Shown one piece after another: positions 1 to 45,592 of a stretch of DNA of 46,451 nt; position 1 is the first letter of the stretch; the number at the start of each line of letters is the position of its first letter. The position numbers and the translations under genes were made by a program. The stretch is from contig JAHLKH010000198.1 of the NCBI GenBank assembly GCA_025526915.1, positions 1 through 46,451 of the forward strand, in the 5' to 3' direction. This DNA comes from Entophlyctis helioformis. Its lineage: Eukaryota; Chytridiomycota; Chytridiomycetes; Chytridiales; Chytriomycetaceae. The notes under the pieces were generated by a model that ran no database searches, was not told the origin of the DNA, and worked only from the letters and a program-made list of their open reading frames with translations.

Positions 1-1767
1 TGCGCACCACAAGCCGGCCGCGTCCGGCAGCCGGTGGCTCTGTCCTGGGACCAGGGTCGGCTGGTGCATCCGGACAGCCAGGCGGCCGCATGTCCAGAGC
101 GGAGATGGCACGCCAGCAGCTCCTTGCCAATCCCAACGCCGTGCGCGCTTTGACCCAGGTTGGTGCTGGCAGTCGGCAGCCTGGCATGATTGGCTCCATG
201 TGCTCACAGGCATGGACCGTGATGCCGTTCCGTGCACTCGAGCAGCAAAACCCAGCCATTGCAAGTGCGCTTTCGGATCCTGCCCAGTTTGAGCGTCTCT
301 TTCTTGAAATGGAGCGCCAGAGAGCCCTTCTTGAGGAGCAACAGCGCCAGGCAATGGTAAGCGGCCTCTGTCCCGCGATCGACGCAGCTCAACACAATCT
401 GCCTTTGTGCACAAACAGCATACTCACATCGCCATCCTTGCGTTTTAGAGCGACATGGAGAGCGCCGACATGTTCGACATTGAGGGGCAACGCAGAATTG
501 AGGAGGAGATTCGCAGGTCCAACATTGCCCAGAACATGGAGGTTGTCGCTTCATCTTGGCGTTTTATTCGTGGTCACGACTAATCCCAGCCATGTACCTT
601 GTCTTTTGGTTCGCTCAGACTGCCATGGAGTACCATCCCGAATCGTTTGGTCGTGTAAGAAAGGATGCCATGTGCACCTGTGGCATCCATTTGTCTGACT
701 TGGCGGTAACCATGACAACGACGGCAAACAACCGGACTGGATTGTTTACAGGTTGTCATGCTGTACATCAACTGCGAGGTCAATGGCCATCCTCTCAAGG
801 CATTTGTCGACTCTGGCGCTCAGGCGACGATCATGAGCGTCGATTGTGCACAAAAGTGCAACATCATGCACCTGGTCGACGAACGGTTTGCTGGCGTTGC
901 TCGCGGTGTCGGAACAGCAAAGATCCTTGGACGTGTCCACTCGGCGCAGATCAAAGTTGGCAACCTTCACCTCCCGTGCTCCTTTACGGTGATGGAGGTG
1001 TGTATCTTTATTGCCGAATGCAAATGTAGCCAAACGAGTTCTTAGACAGACAGCGGCAGTGCCTTGCTTGCTTACACGCTTGCTGAATGAGCGCACAGGG
1101 TAAAGATGTCGACCTTCTTTTCGGTCTTGACATGCTCAAGCGTCACCAGGTTTGTTTGCACGTTGTCCTTTCAAAATGCCTCGTTGCTGACTCTGCTCTT
1201 GTCTATTGTCCTGTCCAACAGGCGTGCATTGATCTGGGGAAGAATGCACTCCGCATCGGTGAAGACGAAGTTCCGTTTCTTCCAGAGCATGAACTTCCTG
1301 AAAAGGCAAAGTGGGAAGCATCAGGAGCCGAGCCAGCATCGAGCAGTGCTGGTCCATGTAAGTCTATGCTGCTGGTTGGCATTTCATGCGGTCGACTGGA
1401 GATTTGGCATGCCGCGACTGGCGCGCAGGAACTTACTCCTGGCGTGGCGGTTGAAACAGCATCGGTGCAGGAACCCTCAGCGCCATCGTCCATTGCTGCG
1501 GCCACTGGCCAGACACAGCCAGTGCCCGCATCCTCGGCGCTGCCAGCAAACGCCGCAAATGCACTAGCATCGGCGCCAGTGTTGGCTTCGGCTGCTGGTT
1601 CCTCCAGGCCTGCTGTGCCCGCTGCAGCTGCCGCGCCACCAGCGTCGCGCTACCCAGAGGCAGTTATCAAGAGTCTGATGGATCTGGGCGTTTCACGAGA
1701 GCAGGCTATTGGCTCTCTTGACGCCTGCGGCGGAAATGCAGACATGGCTGCAAGCATGCTGTTCTGA
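1..1767 (+). CDS. DDI1: DDI1-like ubiquitin-receptor aspartic protease (5' partial)
   Basis: Homologue of DNA-damage-inducible protein 1, a proteasome shuttle with a retroviral-type aspartic protease domain. The N-terminal ubiquitin-like domain lies outside the window. Visible parts in order are the helical linker ([15 protein letters not shown]), the protease domain with catalytic [11 protein letters not shown] and the flap/core segment [24 protein letters not shown], an Ala/Ser/Pro-rich linker, and a C-terminal UBA domain ([16 protein letters not shown]) ending ASMLF-stop. A phase-consistent model is <1-356, 449-541, 619-654, 752-997, 1099-1149, 1222-1357 and 1460-1767. An additional 51-nt intron at 159-209 is possible because it keeps frame. 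All motifs are intact. Its 3' end converges on the tyrosyl-tRNA synthetase gene 170 bp away. Confidence 0.93.
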
Positions 1768-36529: not shown

Positions 36530-36740
36530 GGCCCGATATTCATACAATTACCAAGGATTTTGGAGTTAAATTCGACCCAAGAGGCGACGGATGCAAGCCC
36601 ACATATCACGTGATTGAAGGTTCGAGTCAGCAACGAGCATGCGACGACAGGCGGGCGAGGCACATCCAACGAAGTGCTCACCTTCTATTGAAGTGACCCG
36701 TTAGGTCGATCGGGAGGTTCCCCGATTCAAAGTGTTGTTG
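36530..36740 (-). ncRNA. Candidate Fanzor guide-RNA (omega RNA-like) region, copy B
   Basis: Conserved with 13967-14190 and overlapping the 3' end of the Fanzor reading frame (stop at 36727). It carries the hairpin GACC-CGTTA-GGTC (36695-36707), a GGGAGGTTCCCC hairpin just beyond it, and the shared GGTTCGAGTCAGCAA block. If the RNA runs to the element edge, the adjoining bases just upstream of the ITFG1 start would act as the guide. This is inference from TnpB/Fanzor architecture. Confidence 0.45.
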
Positions 36741-39700
36741 TTGGCAGACATGGCAGCATGATCTGATCCCATGAGGCCACGTGCGACTTGAAGGGAAGCA
36801 GATCGGGTGACGGAGGCTGCTGGACGACAGGCTGATCAGGCGGTGTCACGAGCAGCATGATGTGATGTTGTGCACGCCACTGGATGTCATGATGAGTTGC
36901 CTCAATGTCTGCAAGGTACTCTTGCGTGGCTGGATTGCTGTCAGGTGGCGTGTGCGTCAAGTAGAGCGGCCGTTGTCCATAGAGCAGATGCCACAGTGCG
37001 ACCATCCCGATGTTGGTGGCTCCAAGCACGTCGCGGTGGTAGACGGCCTTGCATGCTGTGCACTCGTAGCGTCGCAGGTTGGTGCGGTTCTCGTATGGGA
37101 TCCGCTGCTTGCACTGCGGGCACATCTGGCTGGTCAGGTTCTCGTTGCAGCGGTAGATCTGTGTGTGTGTGTGCATGATCGTGTGGTCAGTTGGTGCACA
37201 GATGGATGGATGGACAGCGTGGCATCAGACGCACATAGGCATATCCAGACGACCGCAGATGCCTGACGAGAAACTTCTCAAACACAGCGTGCCGACCACC
37301 TTGGCCTGTAAAGTCGATGCCAAATGCCCACACAACGGGAATGTCCTTCTCTGTTGGCTTGTCACAACGGCCTTGAGACGCAGCAGATGCGCGCTCTCCA
37401 GTCTTCGATCCTGCCAGCTTCATGATGCCCTCAAGAGCGTTTCCGCGAATTGACGTGCTGTTGCTGCGCTTGGTGAACCGCTTGGCCTTGACCTTCTGTG
37501 GAATGCCACGCCATGCCATGCCATGCAGTGCAATCAGCAGGCGATCAAGCAGCATGGCGGTCATGTCAATGGGCATCCAGAAACAGAGAAAGCGTACCCG
37601 TGCATTCAGGAATGGCGTGCAGTACGCATGGCAGCGCAAATCCCAAAAGGCTCTCTCGCCAGGCTTGACGTTTGGATCGGCATGCTTTGCTGTCTTGAAT
37701 GCAATGGCCGCCTGGATGTCGGCTGCCTTGGCATATCGATTGTTGAGCCTGGCACAGGAGGCAGGCACTGTGAGTTGATCTGGTCAAGAGTGCGCGTGGC
37801 AGAGTCATTGCATGCATACCACTGCTGAAGGCTGTGCTCGGCTCGTGCCATGCCAGAGGCGAGCACGTAGTTGGACTCGAGGGTATAGGTGAAGGTTGCC
37901 AGATCGACCAGCATGCTGGACGCGCCATACATGTACCGCTCGCCCCAATCAATGCCAACAATCCGCACAAACCGGTAGCCCTTGTTGGTGAACAACTTGT
38001 TGGCTTTGACAATGTTGAGCAATCGCTGCGAGGCGTAGAAGCTGAGCTTGCCCTGTCATGCCATGGCATGAGTGAGGAATGTGCAATGCATGTGCACCAA
38101 AGTGCGAGGTTGGCATGCAAGTGGCTTACAGGATTGGTCGCTTTTGGCTTGGTGGCTGATGGGTCGGCTGGATCGGCAGCTGTGGATGGCATGTCAGTTG
38201 GTGTGGACAACAAGTGCGCGTCTGGATTGGCACCGCAACTCACATGTGCCATCCAAGTGATCATGCCCATCATGCCCATCATGCCCATCATCAACTTCAT
38301 CAGCCTCATCGTCATCATCATCATCATCAGGCATGCCATCAGCAAGCCACAGCTGCTCGCCTAAAGATGCCATGTTGGAGCATGCAGATCAAGGCGGCAG
38401 TCAGAACCAATGTGTGCACCAAAGCATTCAAGCACGCCACATACTGCGAGGCGACTCTGGACGGTCTGTGCGATAGTCCAGCGCCAATTGAAAGATGCTG
38501 TATCCGTCCGTCCGTCCGGCAGCTGCCCACCGCGGTTGGTTTGCTTGGACTTGCAGGAGGAAGACCATCGATCACGGCGTCTATAAACTCCTGGCGCTCC
38601 TTGTCAACCAGACCCTCGTGCTCAGCCAGTTGCATCGCATCAGCAATGACTGCGTCATTTGCTTGGACCTGCTCAAACACCTCCTTGTCGGCCTTGTCTG
38701 GCGTCTGATAGCGGCCTTTCTTGGGCCGGAGGCCGGGAAGGAGTATGTTGAGGATACAGAGCTCCTTGCCATTGCTGAGTGCCTTCTTGATCGTCCTGTT
38801 GGATGACGCGAGGCCCAAGCTGGCTTTTTGGTAGTCTTGGATAAAAGTGGAGTGTCAGCATCATATCATGTAGACATGGCATAAACAAGTGCGACCTACT
38901 GAGTACAGCAAGGAGCTGCAGTCGCAAGTATGCCAAAGCAGCACTTTGCTCGCCACAGATGCGATCAACCCTACTCCCCATCACCGCCCAAAAGAGCGTT
39001 GTCTCGGTGATGAGGATGAAGGGATCGCGGCTGGCTGCTTGCGGGCACAGCTTGTTTGTCGTGCCAGCAAGCTTGGACAGCTCGTAAAAGATCACCATCT
39101 CTGACCGAGACACATCAGGCACAAGCGTCTTGAGCTCGTGCAGCTCTTGCGGGACTGTATCAATACCGCTGTCCTCAGTGGCCGAGGAAGAGCTGGATGC
39201 CGCGTCCTTGGTGGTGGCTGCCTTCCTGCCCCGTCGCTTCTTGGGCCTGCCGCCCTTGTTGGCTGACGAAGAGGTGGACCGACCCCGCTTGAGACTTGAC
39301 GTGGGAGGAGCAGTGTCCAAAGTGGCCAGCAGTGTGGCGTCCTCGATCGCCGGTGGTGTAGCGTCCTTGGCAGCCTTGGCAGCAGCAGCCTTGGTGGCCT
39401 TGGCAGCCTTGGCGGTCTTGAAAAGTGCCGCAATCCACACTCTCACGTCCTCAATGGATGCACTGGGCATCATCTTGAGGGCCGCAGTGACGGCCAGCTC
39501 AGACTGGCTAGAGATGTAGTGCCGCGCGAGCATGCCACACACATCCCTGGCCAGATTGCTGTAAATGTCATGCCTTGCATCCGCGCAAAGGCTGCCATCA
39601 AGCCTGTAGGGCAAGACAGCCTCCATAGTGCCCGCGTGCACAGCGTCTGCCGTTTGTGCACTTGTGTGCATCAAGGCCGACAGCTCTGCATCTGCCTGCA

Positions 39701-42700
39701 CCACGGCTGACAGGATCGCGTCGGCCTGGATTGTCACCGTCTGCTGTGTCGCGTCCATCATGTCGACATCCATCATGGCTGCTCGCATCGTGTCCATCTG
39801 TGCCATGTCCATCAGCATCGTGCACGTCTGCATCATGTCCATCCGTACCATGTCATCCTGCAGCTTGGCTGCGTTGGTTTGCAGCACCCTCCGCGTCCAG
39901 GTGCGATGGATCGTCATTTGCATGACTGTTACAATCCAGGAGTGGATGGCATGCTTGGTTGCTTGCGGCTGCACCATCATGCTGTCCGCCAGGACATAGA
40001 CAAGATGGCACAGCAGCATGTCCACAGCACTGCCTCCACCTGATATACTGCTGGTGAGGGCTGTAAGCAGCTCATTTGCTGATGGAACTGCTGCTGCTGC
40101 TGGTGGTGGTGGCGGTTGGACGGCTGAAGATGAAGCGCTGGTGCTGCTGGCCGCTGCTGTCGGCTGATTGTGCTCATCGTGCTCATCGTGCTCGTCCTGC
40201 TCGTCCTGCTCGTCCTGCTCGTCCTGCTTGTCCTGCTCGTCGTGCTTGTCCTGCTCGTCCTGATCGTCGAGGTCGCCATGCATGTTGGTTTGCTTGGCAA
40301 TCTTGGCAGTATCAAAGGCGCAGATCTTGAGAGCCGTGTCACTCTCGAGAGTCACCAAGCTGCCATAGCGAGGGATCTTTGTGTCGCTGCTGTGCGGGCC
40401 GGTGCCGTACATGTGCCAAACAATGATGCCCTGCTTGTGAATGCATCCACCTGACAAGAGCGTCGCGCTCTCGTCCTCGTCAAAGTCCTCGGGGTTGACA
40501 TAGTAATACTGCGTCAGCTTGCCTTGGCTTGCCTCCAGGACACAGTACTCCAGAGGCAGAGGCGCGTCTGCATTCAGCTTGACCAGATCCGCGACCATGG
40601 CGCCGATCAAGGCAAGGGCAGCACGCCACAAGCCGGCCATGAAATAGTAGACTGTGAGGGTGGTGTCGTGGCTGATTGAACTGGGTGTCTGCTCGGCGAG
40701 TGGTGTCTTGGTTTGGGGCCCAAAAAACTTGGTGTTTGCGAGATCGCATGACTGCATCTCCTGCATACCACACAAGTCAGCATACACAAAGCCAAGCAAA
40801 CAGAGCAGCATGCCGATCAAACCCCATACCGCCATTTTGACAATCTGCTCAGGGCGGCTGTGTGCATTGCCTTTAGGTCTTGGCTGTCCTTTGGGATAGG
40901 TGGCCGCGGCAAGTGTCATGACTGGCATCGCAATCATGCGGCTGAGCTTTGCAAGCTTCTGACGAGTTGCCACTCGACTGCCAGCAACCCATCTGTGGCA
41001 TGACACACGTGTCAGCAAGCACATTCAAGGCACATGACATGCCATATGTCGCGTACGCCTTCTTCTTGCCAACAGTTCCAGCCTTGCGAGCATGCAGGCC
41101 AGACTTCTTCTTGTTCTCTCTGATGATCTCCTGTAGTGTGGCCTTCTCTTTTTTCTTGGCACGCTCCTTTGTGTGCGCAGCCCGCTTGGCTGCTGTGAAT
41201 TGGAATGGCGCCTGTGACGGTTGGATGCAGCATCAGGCGGCCATTCCAAGTGCACCAAACACAGCCATAATTGCCAAGGGTGCACCAAACTCACCGTTGT
41301 CTCAGTGTCGGCAAGATCGCCAACGGGAAAGGTCTTGGAGCATGCCAGTGCTGCAAAAATGTTGTTGGACAACCGTGGTGGCTTGGGCGGCGGTGGAGGA
41401 GGACCAGCCTGTGGAGTGGGATGGTGAGCAATCGCGCCAATCATTCCATGCACATGCAGTCAGTGGAAGTCGAGACGCACTGCACTTTGCTCAATGATGG
41501 ACTGCAGCAGGGCAACGGCCTTTTGGCGCTGATTGATGAGTGTCGGCGGTTTGGCGTTTTCTGGATGTGGACCTATGGGGTGCTCCAGGAAATACAGCCA
41601 GGCTGAGGCCTTGTCGTGGATAGCAGCGACAATGGATCGCGGTGCAACTCGCGTGGTCATCCTGCCATGGTACTCGACTTTCTGCGTCTCTGTGTCCAGT
41701 ACTATGCATTCAACACAAATGGATCTGTGAGTGGATGCTGTTGAATCATTTCAATGCAATCAACACCTACTGGGAGTGGATGTATGCCGGTGGGATGCGC
41801 ATGGCGGATTGGCAATCTTGTCCAGCTGCGTCTGCATTCTCATTGCTGCGTTCTGTCCAGAAGCAATGGATCAAGTCAGCCGCATTCAAAATCAGCAAAT
41901 GCACGTGGTGTGATAGCAACAGCATGCATTCAAGCCATGCAAACATACCAATGCGCGATAGATTGGCTCATCTGCTGGGAGGAGCTCAAAAATGCCATCT
42001 GCTCCAAGAAACTGCTCGCTGGCAATCTGCAGCAGCTGGGCACTCGCTGCTTTGCAGATGGCCGCCAGGATGTCGCGACGCATGACAGCATCGTAGCTGC
42101 TCGCAAGGCGGTTGACTGTGCACTTGATGATGGTGTCGAGTGCCACATGGCAACCCTTCACCTCAATGAAGGCAGCATCCAACCGCCTGTTGCCAACAGT
42201 GCTGCTGACAAGCTGCTCAACCCTGCCACGTGTCAGGTGGACAAGCTGGACACCGTTCTCAGCCTGCTGCTGCTGCTGCTGTGCAGTATGGCTCAAGCAG
42301 CATCCATCCATCAAGCACCTGCACAATAATGAGATCGCAGCATCAGAAACAGAAACTCAGTGTCAGTTTTGCCAGAAACGCCACAGATTCCATGCATTCA
42401 TACTTCATTCCAACAGATGGAGTCGTGTTGACATCCATGTGGTTGGTGTGGTTGGCTTGAGGCTCAGATCTGTGCAAGGCATTCAATTGCGTCAATGCCA
42501 GTATGTCCATGACATCCTTCAAGAATAAACCTACCTCGCGACGATCGGCGCTGTGATTGCACCAGCAGAGGCCCCAACATCATTCCGGTTGACAAAGACT
42601 TCAAATGCGTTCTTGAATGCCTGCACGAGGCTCTCATCACCATTCTTGACCAGCTCCTCGATGTACGCGTCCTTGATGGTGTCCATGAACGCCTTGGCCT

Positions 42701-44025
42701 CGTTAGGAGTCTTGAGGATCACGTAGAGGTCAGCCGCCTTGATGTTGAGCTCTTTGACCTTGGCATCAAACCGCGCATTGACAAACTTGACCGCGGCGGC
42801 GATTCCTGGCAGGGAATGCAAGCAGAATCGCGCATGTTGACAAAGAATGGCATGTGAGTGATGGCAGATACTACAAAACAGGCGCGGCAACTCACCATGG
42901 TCATTGCGGCCAAAAAAGTCTGTATGAGAAAGCACAGCCACAGCCAGGCATGCACCGCGAAAATCCCACACGCCCAATGCAGACGCGGTTGAGGCGATAC
43001 CGCCATGGTTGTATGAGCGAATCTGCCCAACCCGCCCATGCTGCAGGTGTGTCAAAACAACACCGCAGTGCCCAGCACAATGTGCCACCAGATCAGAGTC
43101 ATTGGCAATGACAATGATCGGCTTGGCACTGTCACAGAATACAGACCGTGAGCCATCAACTACAGCAGAAGAATGCAAGGCGATCTAACCTGGACTCGCG
43201 AACATGGCAGGCAATGCAACAGTCTGCTTCATAATCACACCAGCAGACTGTGCATCCCTTCTTTTTGCCAGCCAGCTCACTGAGGGCCGCAGCAATGTGC
43301 TGTTTGTCTGTCTGCGTCAACGTGTAGAACCTGTTGAGGGCATACATCTCGTCCCTGATGGCAAGCAGCAGAAGATAGTCAGCATGGCAGCCACACAGTA
43401 GAGAGTAGCAAACTTACTTTGAAAGTGATCCCGTCTGCTTGCATTCTTGGCGGCGGAACGCATACCGCAGGACCTTGACCGCCACATGCAGCATATTGTG
43501 AGCGTGGCTGTAGTGCACAATCTTTATACCTGCGTCTCCGCGGCGACCATCCACATGGAATTTGATGGTGTGGCCGTCGCCGACCGACGCCATGAACAGC
43601 TGAAACGCTGGCTGGACAATGTCCTTCCAGCTGTCAATGGAGTCGGGCATGCTGATGGCGGCTGTGGCGACTAGCTGCGAGAAGAAGACGCTTAGCACGT
43701 CAACGTGCAGCATCCCGCTGAAGTGGGTGGTTGCGGCTGTTGTTGTTGCGGCTGTTGCTGTTGCGGCTGTTGCTGTTGCGGCTGTTGCAGTCTGCTGTTG
43801 CGGTGGTGGCTGTTGCAGTGGCGGCTGTTGCAGTGGCGGCTGTTGTGGCAGCAGCTGTTGCAGCATAGCCTGCAAGACCTGGCACAGGGTCCAGGCAGCA
43901 CTGTAGACACATACAGCCCTGCCTAGCTTGAGCACCCTCAACAAGCCGGCGACCGTCATGCTTCTTTGTCTGTATCTGCGTTTACGAGAAAAGAATCGGA
44001 GCGTCTGGCGGAGTTGAACTTTCAT
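36727..44025 (-). CDS. XPG/FEN1-like nuclease fused to Fanzor RNA-guided nuclease (about 1,940 aa)
   Basis: The model (complement) is 43418-44025, 43190-43354, 42896-43128, 42535-42805, 41949-42291, 41481-41681, 41295-41408, 41039-41211, 40830-40992, 38900-40760, 38445-38835 (holding one short intron or frameshift), 38244-38360, 38130-38179, 37820-38052, 37235-37748 and 36727-37158. The N terminus has the XPG/FEN1 motifs in order: GLLRVLKLG, HVDVLSVFF (about residue 108), IKFHVDGRRGD (157), CDYEADCCIA (243), IANDSDLVAH (268), and VLSHTDFFG with GIAAAVKFV (328). The middle has a Pro run, a Lys-rich segment, a D/E/Q/H repeat, a Met-rich helix and an AT-hook/NLS (KGGRPKKRRGRK). The C terminus has RuvC-I IVGIDWGERY (about 1585), the relocated Glu in NENLTSQMC (1804), zinc ribbon CPQC/CTAC and RuvC-III HRDVLGATN (1841). 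All catalytic acids are present. ATGs at 44085 or 43959 are alternative starts. Two adjacent genes rather than one cannot be excluded. Confidence 0.65.
38503..38518. repeat. (TCCG)4 tetranucleotide in the Fanzor gene
   Basis: Four TCCG units in exon 11 of the fusion gene; copy A has only a degenerate TCCATCCG. Reading straight through them shifts to a frame that stops. Frame is restored either by one unit fewer or by a ~43-nt intron ending at GGGCAG just before the repeat (in mRNA sense). Confidence 0.7.
39215..39275 (-). other. AT-hook/NLS-like segment in the linker of the fusion protein
   Basis: Encodes KGGRPKKRRGRKAA, preceded by LKRGRSTSSSAN. The GRPKK-RGRK core resembles an AT-hook and also a bipartite nuclear localisation signal, suitable for a nuclease acting on nuclear DNA. 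Confidence 0.6.
40160..40275 (-). repeat. Acidic D/E/Q/H tandem repeat in the fusion protein
   Basis: A tandem 9-bp array (GTCCTGCTC on the + strand and variants) encodes repeated DEQ and DEH triplets. This is typical of replication-slippage-prone linker DNA. It separates the XPG-side sequence from the Ala/Met-rich helical part. Confidence 0.8.
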
Positions 44026-44164
44026 TGCTGACACAGACAGAGAGCGAGTGGATAGAGAGCGAGCAGTCTGGCACTCGCCGCCCACTGCCCGACAACCATC
44101 AAGGGAGCAGCGAGCACAGCCAACAGCCAGGCGTTCAAGATGCGGTCATGTGTTGCTGGCACAG

Positions 44165-45354
44165 TCATTGATGTGATGCCACCCAGTGCGCAGCTCGACA
44201 TGCACTGTGCAGCATCACTTTGCGTGTCATGAGCTGCATTGCAACGAGCCTCTCTCCGAGTAGCATCTTCTCAGTCAATGTCCCACTGCATCCATCGATC
44301 GTCCTGATATGCATCTGCATTGTGACCCAGTGCGATGCAGTTGGTATTGCCTGACTGGCCAGCTGGTCCATGAACTGGTTGGCCGTTGACGCACTGCCTG
44401 CATCGCCGCTCTGCTCTGGATCGTCCTCGTCAACAAGCACAGTGCATGCAAGACTGTGATCGTCAGGGTCTTCGCCATCATCGTCATTGTGGTTGTTGAA
44501 TGGATCGAGAGTGCTTGGTCTGTCTGTCTGGCCACTCCAGTTGCTGGTCAGTGGGTCGCATCCAAGATGCCATCGCACCAAGTGCAATGTGGCCAGACAC
44601 GCCTGCCAGCACTCGCGTCCTCCTCACCAGTCTCGCCTGGATCAGTGTCGTTGAGTGTGCTGCTCATCGAGTGTGCTGCCTCTGTCGAGTTTGGCGTCCA
44701 AGTCGGCATGCCAATCCAGCTGCCCAGCAAGCAGTTCCTGCAGCCAACTCCAAGGATCGATCCATTGAGCACGTCTCAGTGGCTGCTCATTGCTGCTGCT
44801 GCATCCCATGTCGCAGTCGGAAAGCACCAGGCAGCTTGGTCCTGCGATGCCAACGCTCTCGCTGTCCTCTTGAACAACAGCCAGATCGCCCTGTTCACAG
44901 CCGTCTTGCCAACGTCTCTTGTTGCTGTTTGGACCCATCAGACATGCACGCAGTCAGTGCCAAGACCACACAGACACGGCCGTCAGACTGCTGTGCTGTC
45001 GTCGTCGTCAACAGGCAATGGAGCATGCCTGGACAGACAGCGAGTCAACGCACCTGCTTGCCTGTCTGCAGCCTGCCTTCTGTCCCCCCGCCTTGTTGGG
45101 CACGCCTCTCAGACGGCCACGACCACGCTGCTCTGCTGCATGGCCTGCTGCATGGCCTGCTGCATGCCACCTTGAGCGGTGAGCCTCGCAGTCTCCCCCG
45201 AAAGGACTCGTCCAGCAAGCGAGTGTTGTCCCATATCCGTGCTGTCGCCTGCGTCGTCGTCGCTGTCGTTGGATTCGTTGTTGCTTGTGTGCAGTTGGGC
45301 GGCAAGTGCAGCAGCGTCTGGATCTGGCATGGCGCGTTGCTGCTGTGCTCGCAT
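44165..45354 (-). CDS. Possible accessory acidic protein upstream of the fusion gene
   Basis: Three open segments in the same direction could be exons of one gene. From the ATG at 45354 come a disordered acidic piece (NNESNDSDDDAGDSTDMG) and a middle piece (VVQEDSESVGIAGPSCLV; PWSWLQELLAGQLDWH). The last piece carries HNDDDGEDPDDHS and DEDDPEQSGDAGS, then a helical end (LLGERLVAMQLMTRKVML) to a stop at 44165. No family is recognised. Splice joins are not convincing, so this may be one gene, several pieces, or upstream exons of the fusion gene. Confidence 0.3.
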
Positions 45355-45387
45355 CGCGCAGTGTCTGCACCACGCAAGGGCTCTCTA

Positions 45388-45531
45388 GATCGGCCAATCA
45401 CAGCGATTCCACCAGGATCGGCCAATCACAGCGATTCCACCAAGAGTTGACCAATCACAGCGATTCCACCAGGATCGACCAATCAGAGCGATTCCACCAG
45501 TATTGACCAATCACAGCGATTCCACCAGGGG
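45388..45531. repeat. Five 28-29 bp tandem repeats with CCAAT boxes
   Basis: Units of roughly GATCGGCCAATCACAGCGAT plus TCCACCAG, with CCAATCA at 45394, 45422, 45451, 45479 and 45508 (spacing 28, 29, 28, 29). Small differences between units are clustered in the GATCG part. They lie immediately upstream of the possible accessory frame on the - strand, so they could be a promoter array binding the CCAAT (HAP/NF-Y) complex or a subterminal element repeat. Confidence 0.85.
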
Positions 45532-45592
45532 TAATGGTATGAGAACCGCAGGAAGGGTCTACTATACTACCCCCCATACGAGAGTCCATTTG

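Follow-up and report, generated by a model that had tools for sequence, protein, structure and literature searches.

A contig of the chytrid Entophlyctis helioformis, family Chytriomycetaceae, carries one copy of a multicopy inverted-repeat transposon whose sole recognised gene is predicted to join an XPG/Exo1-like 5' nuclease to a Fanzor-like RuvC nuclease, an arrangement that may serve cut-and-resect copy-back; we put the probability of this reading at about 0.55. The N-terminal 5' nuclease is predicted from its fold and active-site residues, and the C-terminal RuvC nuclease is likely RNA-guided. The window, meaning the whole stretch of DNA analysed (46,451 nucleotides), is contig C198 of the genome (29.57 Mb, 482 contigs); other copies and contigs are given by L and C numbers where they need to be told apart.

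Inverted repeats and 8-bp target duplications identify the element, about 9.0 kb long, as a DNA transposon. The following features were placed in the window.
36530..45547, minus strand: whole transposable element, about 9.0 kb, from the shared stop base of copies and conserved termini
45530..45547, minus strand: 5' terminal inverted repeat core GGTTCTCATACCATTACC, from genome matches
36530..36552, minus strand: 3' terminal inverted repeat, ending in GGTAATTGTATGAATATCGGGCC, compared with the 5' end by eye
45388..45530, minus strand: 5' minisatellite, unit about 30 bp (BLAST), found likewise upstream of L036, L038, L039, L041, and L042
13967..15967, minus strand: second copy in the window, 3' module alone recognisable, with one stop

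The core GGTTCTCATACCATTACC gave 95 genome matches with up to two mismatches (70 exact), and its reversed control gave 0. By eye, the 3' terminal inverted repeat pairs 19 of 23 bases with the 5' end GGCCCGGTTCTCATACCATTACC of other copies; this 5' end is widely shared, and on the 3' side most copies have the same end base. In the five bases outside 45547, the window copy departs from the GGCCC typical of other copies. Target duplications were tested on 26 copies, 24 of which had both ends; the 8-bp flanks matched at 7 or 8 of 8 positions in 10 of the 24, whereas 2,000 shuffles gave 0.29 such copies on average and never more than 3. The other 14 copies scored below 7 of 8 (on C30, the wrong 3' end was picked), a shortfall that tells against the assignment. 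Separately, ATTTGCCGGCGGTTTGCCGGC occurs at 58 places (up to two mismatches), several of them directly past a 3' end (e.g., L007, L013, L018, and L032), and marks either a longer-ended subfamily or a repeated target.

Genome searches gave 146 matches to the XPG-like exon (150 scored of 153 candidates), at least 150 to the Fanzor exon (150 scored of 391 candidates), and at least 150 to the TNB family model, which is independent of the window sequence (150 scored of 205 candidates). Out of 145 merged XPG places, at least 90 had a Fanzor marker within 12 kb downstream on the same strand, with a spacing of 4.5 to 7.5 kb in 75 of these pairs; control orientations gave 1 (upstream, same strand) and 1 and 3 (opposite strand). 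The two parts were accordingly rejected as chance neighbours, and a single host gene was rejected because the element is multicopy and has inverted repeats. L041 (C122) was unpaired among the matches listed, yet both domains were present when the region was read. Both were also present in L086 (C15; 37% identity group), with one shift and zero stops under our aligner, which placed extra exon-10 introns. L042 (C100) is a true fragment, in which similarity ends after exon 1. Less favourable to a family-wide fusion are the 55 of 145 XPG places without a listed Fanzor partner (8 of the 55 cut by a contig start), among them C5:203068, where the stretch fetched had no Fanzor part. In L037, about 1.8 kb of additional DNA splits the XPG-coding exons.

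On the minus strand (44025-36727), the gene was modelled as 17 exons, separated by GT-AG introns and compatible in phase. An earlier reading of this DNA from sequence only (the sequence-only reading) had traced about 16 exons from XPG blocks to a Fanzor C terminus; its path and compatible phases were recovered, with the exon count corrected to 17.
44025-43418, 43354-43190, 43128-42896, and 42805-42535, minus strand: exons 1-4, with a low-complexity leader ahead of the XPG/5'-nuclease-like domain
residues about 100-426, minus strand: XPG/5'-nuclease-like domain, within exons 1-4 (42535..44025)
42318-41949, 41852-41771, 41701-41481, 41408-41295, and 41211-41057, minus strand: exons 5-9, bridge (span 41057..42318), fold not assigned
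38900..40992, minus strand: exon 10, a 697-codon open exon with a low-complexity D/E-rich insert
38445..38835, minus strand: exon 11, WED-like part (by position), with TDG motif (T codon 38513-38515)
38360-38244, 38179-38130, and 38052-37820, minus strand: exons 12-14, Fanzor-like C-terminal part
37748-37598, 37495-37235, and 37158-36727, minus strand: exons 15-17, Fanzor-like C-terminal part

In the window copy, exons 1-10 give 1,437 residues in one frame, and exons 12-17 are open in their own frame up to the stop at 36727-36729; the Fanzor-like part was assumed to start in the 3' end of exon 10. The intact reading frame implied by the sequence-only reading is absent: exon 11 enters in frame and loses it near 38.5 kb, inside a short tandem tract. 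Out of 41 sequences examined at this tract, 11 had no match; the other 29 in which it could be located, from about 25 distinct copies, all have a tract of another length than the window copy. The window copy is therefore frame-broken or carries an assembly error, and in its present form it cannot encode the complete fusion.

The XPG blocks HVDVL, FHVDG, YEAD, NDSDL, and HTDFF, together with GIAAAVKF, are present on the minus strand of the window, and the seven conserved XPG/FEN1 acids are all kept in order (one Asp is lost in L044). The roles of single acids are those that we take them to have in FEN1.
43699-43701, 43549-43551, 43228-43230, and 43222-43224, minus strand: XPG acid codons 1-4
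43098-43100, 43092-43094, and 42918-42920, minus strand: XPG acid codons 5-7

Comparison with FEN1-type structures, as proposed with the sequence-only reading, bore out the assignment: the structure model matches Exo1/FEN1/XPG chains, with Exo1 the best fold match, the model itself being poor (mean predicted local distance difference test score [pLDDT], 46.7). XPG_I_2 was the top Pfam match of all five proteins tested (eight found; E, 0.00019 to 0.014). Set against the assignment, beside the quality of the model, is that Pfam XPG_N, XPG_I, and XPG_I_2 all fell below the gathering score (best, 21.5 versus 24.2 bits); pieces of the window gave zero XPG Pfam matches over the cut-off. The domain thus shares with XPG/FEN1/EXO1 5' nucleases the strand/helix order of the model, the seven acidic positions, and a GIxxA helical motif after the last Asp, but its sequence has diverged beyond the Pfam XPG cut-offs, it sits in a transposon protein, and its activity is predicted only. 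XPG motifs by chance were rejected on the 146 genome matches (145 of them stop-free) and the fold matches. PDB sequence searches with the XPG and Fanzor alignments gave chance matches only, and an Rfam isrG match over the exon 1 repeat (subthreshold, 33 of 100 bits) was also taken as chance.

At the C terminus, PF07282 (TNB zinc ribbon) scores 41 to 42 bits in the window against a cut-off of 26.3 and matches all four members of alignment A3; NF040570 (guided_TnpB) reaches 5e-6, yet with 25.9 of 100 bits it is far under its cut-off. The catalytic residues and zinc ribbon lie as follows.
37948-37950, minus strand: RuvC-I Asp
37141-37143, minus strand: alternative RuvC-II Glu
37122-37051, minus strand: CxxC...CxxC
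37030-37032, minus strand: RuvC-III Asp

The pattern ExxxxxxCxxCx(12,18)CxxCx(4,8)D, given for Fanzors and their bacterial kin in the available text of PMC10711439, matches in the window at residue 1843 with the alternative RuvC-II glutamate. The same text assigns the TDG motif in the WED domain to Fanzor1 and the RuvC-I motif DPG "near exclusively" to Fanzors (PMC10711439). TDG is present in 29 of 30 sequences, the window included, with NG in L086. RuvC-I reads DWG, not DPG, in the window, the other three A3 members, and L086, which is a point against a Fanzor identity, and we therefore call the protein Fanzor-like rather than a typical Fanzor. The sequence-only reading, which had seen all RuvC acids and a zinc ribbon, was right about the acids and, with PF07282 over its cut-off, about the ribbon; the Fanzor-typical DPG is what the domain lacks. 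A Fanzor fragment structure from three public models (mean pLDDT, 39.9) was not used further.

Whether the two domains form one protein was judged from introns and selection. The window protein was aligned to eight other copies with a spliced aligner of our own, checked on the window; introns were said to agree if they lay within 2 residues and had the same phase. The resulting set of nine copies, window included, comprises six divergent groups, with window/L041, L038/L039, and L085/L086 as close pairs. Out of 16 introns, 9 are conserved in every copy spanning them, 6 in all but one, and 1 in four of nine. Agreement is 9/9 at residues 203, 336, 549, and 650, 8/9 at 258, 577, 688, and 740, 7/7 at 1567, 1606, 1700, 1750, and 1837, and 6/7 at 1438 and 1622. 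Those that bridge the XPG and Fanzor parts (residue/phase 549/0, 577/1, 650/0, 688/0, and 740/2) recur in 8 or 9 of the nine copies and rank among the best conserved. By codon counting, the ratio of nonsynonymous to synonymous divergence (dN/dS) is 0.21 to 0.34 over the XPG domain (nine of ten copy pairs), 0.22 to 0.77 over residues 431-740 of the bridge and 0.13 to 0.61 over residues 741-1290 (ten pairs each), and 0.32 to 0.52 over the RuvC part (eight pairs), values indicating that the two nuclease domains and the bridge are all under purifying selection. NCBI gene models match 8 of 11 compared junctions by eye (P0004, 3 of 4; P0003, 3 of 4; P0002, 2 of 3).

On these comparisons, a single predicted protein of about 1,950 residues from about 17 exons is the better reading than two genes, and the fusion proposed by the sequence-only reading is best read as a property of the whole transposon family rather than of the window copy. 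The contrary case is that of two adjacent genes in one transposon, XPG-like and then Fanzor-like, joined solely in the exon model, which we consider improbable. Several results nevertheless lean that way or loosen the single-gene reading. None of the NCBI models found spans the join; the halves lie in separate short proteins, P0004 ending in exon 5 and P0003 starting in exon 10. Intron 426 agrees in just four of nine copies and is placed differently again in P0004. Codons 1541-1640 show weak or no constraint (dN/dS, 0.47 to 0.98; eight pairs), and many synonymous divergence (dS) values exceed 1, a range where the codon-counting method is rough. The aligner took the window model as its seed, and the extra exon-10 introns in L041 and L086 may mask breaks; frame breaks occur in the window copy and in several others. 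When 7,993 candidates of suitable length were scored against a full-length alignment, zero proteins reached E ≤ 0.1. Two genes would, on the other hand, leave unexplained why five bridging introns keep their phase in 8 or 9 of nine copies and why residues 431-740 and 741-1290 are under apparent purifying selection in a single frame. Under the aligner, L041 is free of stops and shifts up to residue 879 and L086 up to residue 1674, and the public models may derive from broken copies. The sequence-only reading had held that homologues with the two parts always in separate genes would tell against it; the paralogues instead share the bridging introns.

A candidate guide RNA was sought at the 3' end.
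36530..36731, minus strand: 3' noncoding end and candidate scaffold of a guide (omega/re) RNA, with the inverted repeat inside it, from a 34-copy alignment

Out of 50 sources, 35 gave at least 200 bases; one with a garbled end was excluded, leaving 34. The final 200 bases before the element end are conserved in these 34 copies, and RNAalifold predicts 38 pairs, including a terminal hairpin formed by the inverted repeat, with 98.5% of cells paired. In a run on 35 copies with other scoring, the fold score was -84.8, compared with -56.4 ± 4.4 in 30 column shuffles. Covariation is weak, which lessens the case for a guide RNA: only 3 of 38 pairs change on both sides, a count reached by 39 of 500 shuffles. 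Seven cells change on both sides, which 0 of 500 shuffles reach, though relatedness among copies can inflate this measure. As far as the available text of PMC10711439 describes them, Fanzor1 guide RNAs include the inverted repeat and target duplication; the 3' end here fits that description as a candidate RNA only. A further hairpin near the 3' end, covarying by eye, was inconsistent across alignment rows and was dropped.

The 3' module (window 36530-38512; counterparts in L036-L041 and L086) is homogenised among otherwise strongly diverged copies. In the six divergent pairs that cover both regions, dS is about 0.9 to 2.3 (one saturated) over the first 1,540 codons and 0.13 to 0.18 over codons 1641-1905, and third-position identity rises toward the 3' end. 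The 3' introns (including 1606, 1622, 1700, 1750, and 1837; window 38243-37159) are 87 to 95% identical in 30 to 32 copies, with 90 to 95% for the five named, more than the four-fold sites of exons 1568-1660 (72 to 83%). These patterns are most simply explained if copies have exchanged their 3' modules, as would be consistent with repeated breakage and repair in that region.

A family once active but now largely dead, in which the fusion once existed and the present copies are old relics, would account for the frame breaks in the window copy, L041, L039, and others, and every copy read full length shows shifts, stops, or doubtful introns. We nonetheless hold it to be quite unlikely, given that the 3' module is open in 23 of 32 sequences (best-scoring matches, a favourable sample), that all but one of the XPG-exon matches lack a stop, and that 70 inverted-repeat cores are exact. 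The XPG dN/dS is 0.21 to 0.22 in the close pairs window/L041 and L038/L039, although L038/L039 reach 0.67 to 0.69 in two other segments.

If the favoured reading of a cut-and-resect copy-back element is right, transcripts of the 3' end that read into the flank would act as guide RNA. Departure of an element would leave an empty site, named by the RNA, for the Fanzor-like half to cut; the XPG half, tethered to it, would trim back the 5' ends, and homologous repair from an element-bearing copy would restore the element. Insertion at new sites has no recognised domain to account for it. Searches of Pfam, NCBIfam, and PDB sequences recognised no transposase in the sole recognised gene, and in the bridge and exon 10 they found zero known families at the sequence level, where the fold was not predicted. 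The 8-bp target duplications imply some integrase-like activity on the ends; its source would be either an unrecognised fold within the bridge or exon 10, or an enzyme encoded elsewhere. Four genome matches to a KDZ transposase were seen (C334, C271, and C396).

The fusion could instead be the transposition enzyme itself, its XPG-like domain processing the ends and its Fanzor-like half choosing or cutting the target, so that insertion would be RNA-guided with no other transposase. This idea, which goes back to the sequence-only reading, has in its favour a sole gene without a recognised transposase domain, and we regard it as doubtful. Eight-base-pair duplications with short inverted repeats, as found here, usually point to a DDE-type transposase with a fixed stagger, and we know of no structure-selective 5' nuclease that carries out strand transfer. 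Most of the 5' flanks listed differ from one another and show no single target. The stronger proposal of a self-contained RNA-guided element, one protein of which would cut and resect or process flaps, move or home without a separate transposase, and homogenise its own 3' end and guide RNA through its own breaks, seems rather unlikely to us; the self-contained insertion machine suggested earlier stays conjectural: no transposase domain was recognised, but the duplications point to integrase-like activity.

With Fanzor1 DNA transposons, so far as they are described in the available texts, the element shares the inverted repeats, target duplication, and many copies, as well as a C-terminal RuvC/zinc ribbon, the alternative RuvC-II glutamate, and the TDG motif (PMC3627910, PMC10711439, PMC10432273). 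The prototype, SPu-1, is likewise a chytrid (Spizellomyces) element, of about 2.1 kb with a 633-residue protein in one open frame (PMC3627910, PMC10711439, PMC10432273), whereas the gene here has about 17 exons and a predicted product of about 1,950 residues, which includes a 5'-nuclease-like domain at its N terminus as well as a long bridge, and has DWG for DPG. No description of an XPG-Fanzor fusion was found in the literature searched, with subscription papers and outside preprints beyond scope. Some Academ elements carry an XPG nuclease alongside a transposase (literature searches found no such report); as in the element here, a DNA transposon brings along an enzyme of the repair type, but the XPG part is in this case fused to a nuclease of the RNA-guided type, and a transposase is not recognised. 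To our knowledge, known RNA-guided nucleases leave end processing to the host. If the fusion is real, it would combine the cutting and trimming steps of RNA-guided DNA change in one molecule. It would reveal a way in which transposons of this kind tilt repair in favour of their own copying, and genome editing could borrow from it a compact cut-and-resect design. With so many natural variants in a single chytrid genome, the role of Fanzors for transposons becomes directly testable.

Outside the element, the flank past the 5' end (window 45555-45587) was found again at C334 and C348. Downstream of the element, minus-strand open frames in the window (33.3 to 36.7 kb) show, by eye, what we take to be FG-GAP-like motifs.

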